A stretch of DNA of 37,446 bases from Meiothermus luteus (lineage in GTDB: Bacteria > Deinococcota > Deinococci > Deinococcales > Thermaceae), in contig NZ_QWKZ01000016.1 in the NCBI RefSeq assembly GCF_003574085.1, forward strand, positions 1 to 37,446, in the 5' to 3' direction. The notes beneath the pieces are model-generated. The model saw only the letters and a list, made by a program, of their open reading frames with translations, did no database searches and had not been told where the DNA came from. Shown here one piece after another: positions 35,523-37,446 of the stretch; the stretch's first letter is position 1, and each line of letters begins with the position of its first letter. The translations under genes were made by a program, and so were the position numbers.

Positions 35523-37446
35523 TCACACAGCTACCCGGCCCCGCAGCTCCTCGTTGGGCAGGCCGACGACAAAGCCGAAGGAAACCAGGACGAACAAGGC
35601 CGCGTAGAGGAATATATCCCGCTCGGCGTTGGTGATGCCCTGATTGAGGGCCTCGTGGAGCTTGCGCTTGGTCTCTTCCAGCCGCTCCACCACCTGCTGC
35701 GGCACCTCTTCCAAGGCTTTCTGCTCCGCGGCCGCCAAGCTCTCGCGTAGGGTCTGCACCGTCTTATCCAAAGCGGCGGCCTGGGCCTTGCGCAGCCCCT
35801 CCCGCAGCGAGGACAGGGCCTGCTCCAAAGCCCGGGCCTGAGCCCGCGCCAGCTCGGCCCGGAGCTGGGCGATGGCTTGTTGGGTTGCCGCAGCTTCGGC
35901 CTGAGCGACCTGGTTCTCTAAGGCTGCCCGCACCTGGGCCAGCACCATCGGCCGGGCCTCGGCAGGGGGCGGGTTATCCAGCAAACCCCGAAGACGGGGG
36001 TCTAGCCCGGGGGTGGCTAGAAGCGCCTGCTTGGCTTGCTCGTTGCCCTGTAGGGCGGCCTCGAGCCAGCCCAGGGTCTGCTGCACCCGGGCCCGCACCT
36101 GGGCGGCCACCCCCCCTTGGGGAATCCGGCTTTTGAACTCGGCGGGAACCTGGGGATCTTGTTGCACGGCCCAGTAGGCCTGGGAATCCCCTTTTAGGGC
36201 TGCCACGAGGAGCCGCTCTAGAGCGTGGAACCGCGCCGGTATGCCCCCCTTCACCAGCTTGGCCTTGTACTCCTCCGGCAGGCTGGGGTCCTGCATCAGC
36301 TCTGCATAGGCCCCCTCATCCCCCTTTAGCGCCGCTACCATCAGCCGCTCTAACCGCGCAAACTGCGCCGGTATGCCCCCCTTCACCAGCTCTCCTTTGA
36401 CTTCTGAGGGCACTTGGGCGTCCTGCATCAGGGCCTCGTAGGCCTGGACATCACCCTTGAGGGCGGCCACAAGCTGGGCCTCGAGCCTCGCGAACTGCTC
36501 ATCCAGGTTGAGCCCGGCGGCCCCCTCGCTGCGCTGAACCAGCGCCCCAGGCTTGCAAGAGGCGTTCTCCGGGAAAACCCTGCAAGTCTCGGCGGTCAGG
36601 TGGTGGGTGAGCACCGTGCCCAAGAGGGCAATGCCAATGGTGGAACCAATCTGGCGCATGAGCTGGGTAAAGGCCGTGGCCGAACCCAGCCGCTCGGGGG
36701 GCACGTTGTTCTGAGCGGCAATCTGCAAAAGCGACTGGGCCGGGCCCAACCCGAGCCCAAGCAGGAAGAAGAACAGCACCGCCAACCACAAAGGGGTCTC
36801 TACACTAAGCAGGAAGTGCAGGGTCAGGAAGGTCGCCAGCAGCCAAAGCGTTCCCACCAGCAAAAGGGGCTTGAAGCGGCCCATCCGCCCCGAAAGCACC
36901 CCACTGCTGCTGGCCCCAAGCACCACCCCTAAGGTGAGGGGCAACACCGTCACCCCTGAGGCCGAGGCCGAAACCCCCTTGACTACCTGGAGGTAGAGCG
37001 GGAGAAAGGCCACCGCGCCCAAAAAGGCCGGACCGAAGAAAAAGGTCGCCGCCGAGGCCAGGCTAAAAGTGCGCACCCGCAGGAGGGAGAGGTCAAAAAG
37101 CGGGTGCGGCTGGCGGTTTTGCGACCAGACCCAAAGGACCAAGGACAAGGCACTCAGGACGAACAAGCCCAGGATAGGGGCGCTCAGCCAAGGGTAGGTG
37201 CTGCCCCCCCAGGAGAAGGCCAGCATCAGGGGCACGGTCCACAGGGCCAGCAAAAAGGCGCCCAGGAAATCAAAGGGTTCCCGGCGCTCCGGGGAAAGGC
37301 GCGGCATGTAGCGCAGAATAAAGGCAAGCGCCACCACGCCTACCGGCATGTTGATGTAGAAGACCCAGTGCCAGGAGAGGTGGTCGGTAAGCACCCCCCC
37401 AAGCCAGGGACCCACCGCGCTGCTCACCCCAAAGACGGCCCCGAAA
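35523..37446 (-). CDS. DHA2-type MFS exporter (EmrB/QacA-like) with giant insert before the last TM (5' part outside window)
   Basis: Proton-driven multidrug exporter; the frame runs off the right edge, so the first four or so TM segments are missing. Visible residues, numbered from 37427, start in motif C ('AVGPWLGGVLTDHLSWHWVFYINMPVG', typical of DHA2 TM5) and continue through about eight further hydrophobic segments to about residue 276. The region 280-605 is soluble: three 44-residue repeats (311-354, 355-398, 399-442; consensus 'FxxLExLxVAALKGDxxAY' to 'KGGIPA'), a degenerate fourth copy (about 448-485), then an Ala/Gln/Arg/Glu-rich coiled coil (about 490-600). It ends with one TM ('IFLYAALFVLVSFGFVVGLP') and a short tail. 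The normal TM13-TM14 loop is tens of residues, not over 300. It probably sits outside the membrane. Confidence 0.88.
   Translation of the reverse strand, partial: FGAVFGVSSAVGPWLGGVLTDHLSWHWVFYINMPVGVVALAFILRYMPRLSPERREPFDFLGAFLLALWTVPLMLAFSWGGSTYPWLSAPILGLFVLSALSLVLWVWSQNRQPHPLFDLSLLRVRTFSLASAATFFFGPAFLGAVAFLPLYLQVVKGVSASASGVTVLPLTLGVVLGASSSGVLSGRMGRFKPLLLVGTLWLLATFLTLHFLLSVETPLWLAVLFFFLLGLGLGPAQSLLQIAAQNNVPPERLGSATAFTQLMRQIGSTIGIALLGTVLTHHLTAETCRVFPENASCKPGALVQRSEGAAGLNLDEQFARLEAQLVAALKGDVQAYEALMQDAQVPSEVKGELVKGGIPAQFARLERLMVAALKGDEGAYAELMQDPSLPEEYKAKLVKGGIPARFHALERLLVAALKGDSQAYWAVQQDPQVPAEFKSRIPQGGVAAQVRARVQQTLGWLEAALQGNEQAKQALLATPGLDPRLRGLLDNPPPAEARPMVLAQVRAALENQVAQAEAAATQQAIAQLRAELARAQARALEQALSSLREGLRKAQAAALDKTVQTLRESLAAAEQKALEEVPQQVVERLEETKRKLHEALNQGITNAERDIFLYAALFVLVSFGFVVGLPNEELRGRVAV
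36102..36497 (-). repeat. Three 132-bp in-frame tandem repeats in the DHA2 exporter gene
   Basis: Units at 36366-36497, 36234-36365 and 36102-36233, each coding 44 residues. A stretch of over 20 identical bases recurs exactly 132 bp apart (36235 and 36367 onward), indicating fairly recent duplication or gene conversion of the second and third boundary. A degenerate fourth unit follows. Confidence 0.85.

Follow-up and report, generated by a model that had tools for sequence, protein, structure and literature searches.

The 3' part of a gene for a DHA2-type exporter lies on the minus strand at one edge of the window, i.e., the 37,446-nucleotide stretch of Meiothermus luteus DNA analysed here, which forms one end of a contig in an assembly of 224 contigs. 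The reading frame (640 aa) is open at the contig end, such that the first ~145 codons of the gene fall outside of it. The missing N-terminus sits at one end of a second contig of this genome (C158), where it is 91% identical to residues 1-141 of the orthologue L038, and for this reason the gene is probably complete in the organism and split only in the assembly. The respective contig end (G000:C158:1-881) holds the 5' part together with a MarR gene, and a few codons between the two contigs are missing. On C158, the MarR regulator is found directly upstream of the N-terminus, followed by divergent ArsR-like and metal-ATPase-like genes (both named through orthologous genes at other loci). A MarR gene adjoins the exporter gene in five orthologues as well, which would fit, by analogy, a response to drugs or toxic compounds.

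Residues 1-307 of the fragment are covered by MFS_1 and EmrB-family profile matches. The truncated protein alone reaches 172 bits with TIGR00711, i.e., less than the cut-off of 230 bits, which is exceeded by its orthologues L038 (287), L033 (281), and L042 (260). In the family alignment, the acidic residue of TM1 and its Arg/Gln partners (D33, R112, Q115) are nearly invariant and align to D29, R109, and Q112 of EmrB, the residues used for comparison (PMC13139468). Because these counterparts are nearly invariant, the protein is, as judged from the alignment, likely a proton-coupled exporter. The AF2 model of L038 and its Foldseek matches predict 14 TM helices with an extracytoplasmic TM13-TM14 loop. 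That is, the DHA2 exporter with an insert between TM13 and TM14 proposed in the initial annotation is borne out for the frame of Table 1, and the model also agrees with its placement of the insert outside the cytoplasm.

Table 1. Features of the exporter gene within the window.
Feature	Position	Strand	Basis
DHA2 exporter gene, 3' part: 640 codons + stop	35523..37445	(-)	ORF list, MFS_1 and EmrB-family matches, 5' part on G000:C158
MFS core, about TM5 to TM13 (fragment residues 1-286)	36588..37445	(-)	MFS_1 8e-27, TIGR00711 2e-50, AF2 helices of orthologue L038
TM13 region RQIGSTIGIALLGTVLTHHL (residues 264-283)	36597..36656	(-)	loop alignment, AF2 of L038
Base linker with cysteine pair	36495..36596	(-)	loop alignment
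44-residue unit 1	36363..36494	(-)	gap-free; unit profile, alignment
44-residue unit 2	36231..36362	(-)	gap-free; unit profile, alignment
44-residue unit 3	36099..36230	(-)	gap-free; unit profile, alignment
Cap unit (degenerate fourth), ends in PPP turn	35964..36098	(-)	unit profile, 31 bits
Return arm, 116 residues, predicted helical	35616..35963	(-)	alignment, AF2 of orthologue
19-residue repeat a QAIAQLRAELARAQARALE	35823..35879	(-)	alignment of return arm
19-residue repeat b QALSSLREGLRKAQAAALD	35766..35822	(-)	alignment of return arm
19-residue repeat c KTVQTLRESLAAAEQKALE	35709..35765	(-)	alignment of return arm
TM14, predicted continuous with return-arm helix	35559..35618	(-)	hydropathy; AF2 helix 695-771 of L038

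Repeat units of the TM13-TM14 loop

Within the loop, three 44-residue units are followed by a degenerate fourth one (the cap), a long helical arm, and TM14. The array appears as a 132-base period at 36174-36474 (Tandem Repeats Finder, score 302-304). Its units had been described as near-identical, which does not hold, given identities of 66, 59, and 52% for the protein and 69, 61, and 55% for the DNA. The degenerate fourth unit is present as described, but it is recognised by the same profile as the other units (31 bits). Since the cap is the sole unit in short-loop orthologues, it is probably the ancestral unit. The base linker carries a cysteine pair (CRVFPENASC, i.e., C-X8-C, at 36555-36584) at the base of the stalk, a possible periplasmic disulphide that is kept in Meiothermus and Calidithermus relatives and absent in Thermus. 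No known domain was found in the insert among Pfam, NCBIfam, and PDB sequences (chance-level matches only).

Orthologues of the exporter occur in Meiothermus, Calidithermus, Thermus, and related families; all of them share the core, while the TM13-TM14 loop varies. In several genomes of Meiothermus and Thermus, no copy was detected. Across the order, the loops hold 1 to 9 units, which confirms the anticipated variation in copy number as one between species. Short-loop relatives have the cap unit only, a weak cap follows two units in Thermus (two units in all in one lineage), and two Calidithermus copies show 2 and 5 complete units. Three complete units are found in the window protein and its nearest relative, 5 or 6 in most Meiothermus, and 8 in the M. 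hypogaeus group. Complete units are exactly 44 residues long in nearly all species, and a search with one profile of the unit, as had been suggested, recognises all units including the cap across the order. In a search for the 44-residue region that covered 50 genomes of the family, all of the matches listed belong to DHA2 exporter frames.

Two loci of this set are incomplete. In Meiothermus SKYG110 (L036/L143), a contig end cuts the orthologue within the repeat array, which leaves its unit number unreadable, and L124 (G006:C2, about 64270-64620) is a decayed piece of a second exporter copy, with return arm and TM14 in a broken frame.

Co-variation of unit number and return-arm length

Here, units were counted including the cap and the return arm was measured from the cap end to TM14. 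For 38 sequences, return-arm length follows 18.0 + 19.4 x units (r 0.989). One unit comes with an arm of 42-43 residues (relatives nearest Thermaceae), two units with 62, three with 81 (outside Thermus), four with 99 (L006), six with 133-137, seven with 156, and nine with 194 residues. In eight divergent sequences that belong to other families within the order, the slope is 21.5 (r 0.990). Shared descent alone was rejected as the source of the correlation, since phylogenetic independent contrasts on a tree built from the core alone, i.e., with the loop left out, keep it (slope 18.1, r 0.988; only 18 non-zero contrasts, i.e., few independent changes). This also bears on the Ala/Glu/Arg coiled coil of the initial annotation. 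A built-in helical stalk is indeed present, but because the length of this segment tracks the number of 44-residue units, the better interpretation is that of a return arm within this stalk, and an independent intermolecular coiled coil is disfavoured.

Two close pairs illustrate the length changes. L005 and the Calidithermus sequence L009, which are neighbours in the core tree, are one 44-residue and one 19-residue block apart with the rest of the loop gap-free, and the same pair of gaps separates L126 (M. granaticius) from L018. In both pairs, the gap is found towards the membrane end in each arm. Since the two repeat arrays are separate, each paired indel needs two events, of which the second matches the first. 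The mirrored gap position is what antiparallel pairing would lead one to expect, seen here in only two cases. A Thermus pair (L019/L020) was dropped as an independent paired indel, since both parts could have been lost through a single deletion spanning the cap.

There are exceptions on both sides of the line. The window protein and L038 (three units plus cap) have arms of 117-118 residues where ~96 are expected, i.e., about one 19-mer extra. Thermus arms, on the other hand, are about 5-10 residues short (65-72 residues at three units), and the last Thermus unit has a spacing of 41 instead of 44. A closure constraint, i.e., an arm at least as long as the stalk height, would fit the long arm of the window clade better than a strict register.

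The 44:19 co-variation and the paired indels point to a rigid two-arm stalk, and we infer packing of the arms against one another. A likeness exists to the signalling hairpins of chemoreceptors (MCPs), whose antiparallel arms gain and lose length together through symmetric heptad indels. In MCPs, however, either arm is a simple coiled-coil helix and the indels are of equal size, whereas the arms of the exporter stalk are built from unlike repeats of 44 and 19 residues.

Predicted structure and possible roles of the stalk

Structure prediction, a check already proposed in the initial annotation, was done with AF2 for the orthologue L038 (mean pLDDT 82.3, pTM 0.70) and gives the repeat helices (17+9+6 per unit) as well as a long helix into TM14, i.e., return helices 642-685 and 695-771, the latter including TM14. 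The M. hypogaeus protein (8+1 units; pLDDT 77.5, pTM 0.53) shows an L038-like pattern with less regular middle units. Both models break the return helix with low confidence, at residues 677-702 in L038 and at 940-965 in M. hypogaeus. The best Foldseek fold matches are EmrB, EfpA, QacA, and MHAS2168. If the return arm is straight and rises 1.5 A per residue, the window protein would have one of ~17.7 nm and the M. hypogaeus protein one of 29 nm. Across the series, predicted secondary structure and the same arithmetic yield stalk heights of about 6-29 nm, i.e., a nearly fivefold range.

We consider it probable that the gene encodes a MarR-linked, proton-coupled DHA2 exporter whose TM13-TM14 loop (EL7 in QacA, PEHB in EmrB) has grown into a rigid two-arm stalk. 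The chain would exit TM13, climb N stacked 44-residue three-helix units, be turned back by the proline-rich cap, and come back in the form of a long helix continuing directly into TM14. About 19 return-helix residues (28.5 A) would match each 44-residue unit, such that stalk length would change mainly by gaining or losing 44 + 19 residues together. With somewhat less assurance, though still leaning towards it, we propose that the two arms form an asymmetric 'zipper', i.e., that structural pairing keeps a 44-residue three-helix module and a non-homologous 19-residue helical segment near 1:1, and that mirrored matched duplications or losses make the stalk an adjustable ruler. For its role, which follows less firmly than the packing of the arms, our best guess, held with modest confidence, is a spacer or lever on TM14. 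Such a stalk would keep its tip 6-29 nm off the inner membrane, with a mechanical link between stalk and TM14, and would not serve as a channel to the outer membrane.

In the initial annotation, the built-in stalk was thought to stand in for EmrA. The respective model is a self-contained exporter in which the place of EmrA would be taken by a stalk that extends, perhaps in oligomeric form, to a TolC-type channel or to the outer membrane. The check for an emrA or tolC neighbour is in line with it, i.e., no adaptor or outer membrane factor was recognised among the neighbours read in the own genome and at the orthologue loci L033, L035, L038, L040, and L042. Furthermore, the EmrA family TIGR00998 is over its cut-off in 0/61 genomes, while TolC-type proteins are present in 58/61. 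But the flanks of a one-unit, short-loop orthologue are without an adaptor as well, so there is no apparent trade-off between the stalk and EmrA. With ~6 to ~29 nm, it could not cross the periplasm alone, since even the longest stalk measures less than half of the ~70 nm in Thermus (PMC4463427), and 121 nm are reported for Deinococcus (PMC9388160). In addition, one stalk, made of one chain, cannot enclose a conduit (EmrB acts as one copy with six EmrA; PMC13139468), and the tip is the less conserved end. A replacement of EmrA is thus not supported, and a built-in adaptor that reaches the outer membrane, which we rejected as best reading, seems very unlikely.

A possibility that we take seriously but rather doubt is a gate or lever only, i.e., an overgrown EL7/PEHB by which the transport cycle would be regulated via TM14 and EL1, with length past the base being nearly neutral and kept in step only to close the loop. 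EL7 of QacA is essential and allosteric (PMC10425836), conservation falls away from the membrane (linker 0.73, unit 1 0.69, cap 0.60, tip 0.57), and unit numbers of 1 to 9 come without the reading frame ever being lost, all of which is in accordance with such a gate. Neutral slack, however, would permit over-long arms, while all but the window clade stay near the line, and the fixed unit length of 44 residues is likewise at odds with it. It is also unlikely that a periplasmic carrier or the cell wall uses the stalk as a landing platform, similar to LprG with the TM11-TM12 extension of Rv1410/MHAS2168. The homologous position and the DHA2 precedent with extended helices (PMC10576003) favour such a platform, but no lipoprotein partner was recognised beside the exporter in the loci read. 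A conserved docking tip was looked for along the stalk and not found. Conservation at the tip does not exceed that of the base, so docking there has no support, and the drop in conservation with distance from the membrane speaks against a conserved docking site. Finally, the position of the window at a contig end in a fragmented assembly might suggest an assembly artefact or a chance repeat. This has next to no probability and is refuted for the exporter family, given that the 3+1 layout is found again in L038 (separate assembly, 87% identity), that the loop is also present in isolate and single-contig genomes, and that the unit is recognised across the order.

Relation to known systems

The two-arm stalk can be related to characterised DHA2 exporters. 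QacA of Staphylococcus aureus (PDB 7y58; fold match E 7.6e-14) shares the 14-TM DHA2 core with a helical element between TM13 and TM14, and the loop studied here is helical and homologous in position to its EL7 (AF2, Foldseek). In QacA, this is one short helical hairpin (residues 441-467; PMC10425836), whereas the stalk can reach nine 44-residue units, with a return arm as long as 194 residues. EmrB of E. coli (PDB 8zal) is the best structural match (E 2.7e-16), with helices extending from the same two TM segments. Its PEHB, i.e., the TM13-TM14 loop, comprises three short helices that are key to the assembly with EmrA and TolC (PMC13139468), whereas our exporter has no adjacent adaptor gene and a repeat stalk as loop. 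The triacylglyceride exporter Rv1410/MHAS2168 (PDB 8pnl) likewise belongs to DHA2 and has TM helices that project beyond the membrane, but its extension consists of few helical turns without repeats. It serves the partner LprG, which is encoded in the same operon, and the loop is needed for lipid hand-over (PMC10576003). The coiled coil of SlpA from Deinococcus-Thermus is likewise a long helical spacer (~28 nm) in the same unusual envelope; unlike the exporter stalk, SlpA is an outer-membrane-to-wall connector, i.e., a homotrimer with SLH domain that is anchored in the other membrane (PMC9388160).

The TM13-TM14 loop is known to decide gating, docking, and cargo hand-over in DHA2 exporters (QacA, EmrB, Rv1410), and close relatives offer a natural series of lengths, from about 6 to 29 nm, which makes its role testable. 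The exporter is a real, unusual elaboration of a known transporter family, of which the paired-repeat rule is the new part; no prior description of a paired-repeat stalk was found in the literature searched, with many subscription papers outside that search. For studies of repeat evolution, it provides a clean case of two unlike repeats that expand together within one protein, with a quantitative rule, and the 44:19 rule is useful for the design of stalks of chosen length.

Two observations were made at other loci. At G001:C6:27741-29162 and G017:C42:8522-9946, frames of 612 and 629 aa have two sets of EmrA-family matches each, with an MFS gene and a gene for an outer membrane factor nearby; the loci are apparently EmrAB-TolC-like with a possibly doubled adaptor. 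In M. hypogaeus (L033, 8302-11866), the exporter adjoins genes for a cytochrome P450, an FAD-dependent oxidoreductase, and a glycosyltransferase, which was not seen at the other loci read and possibly represents a carotenoid cluster.
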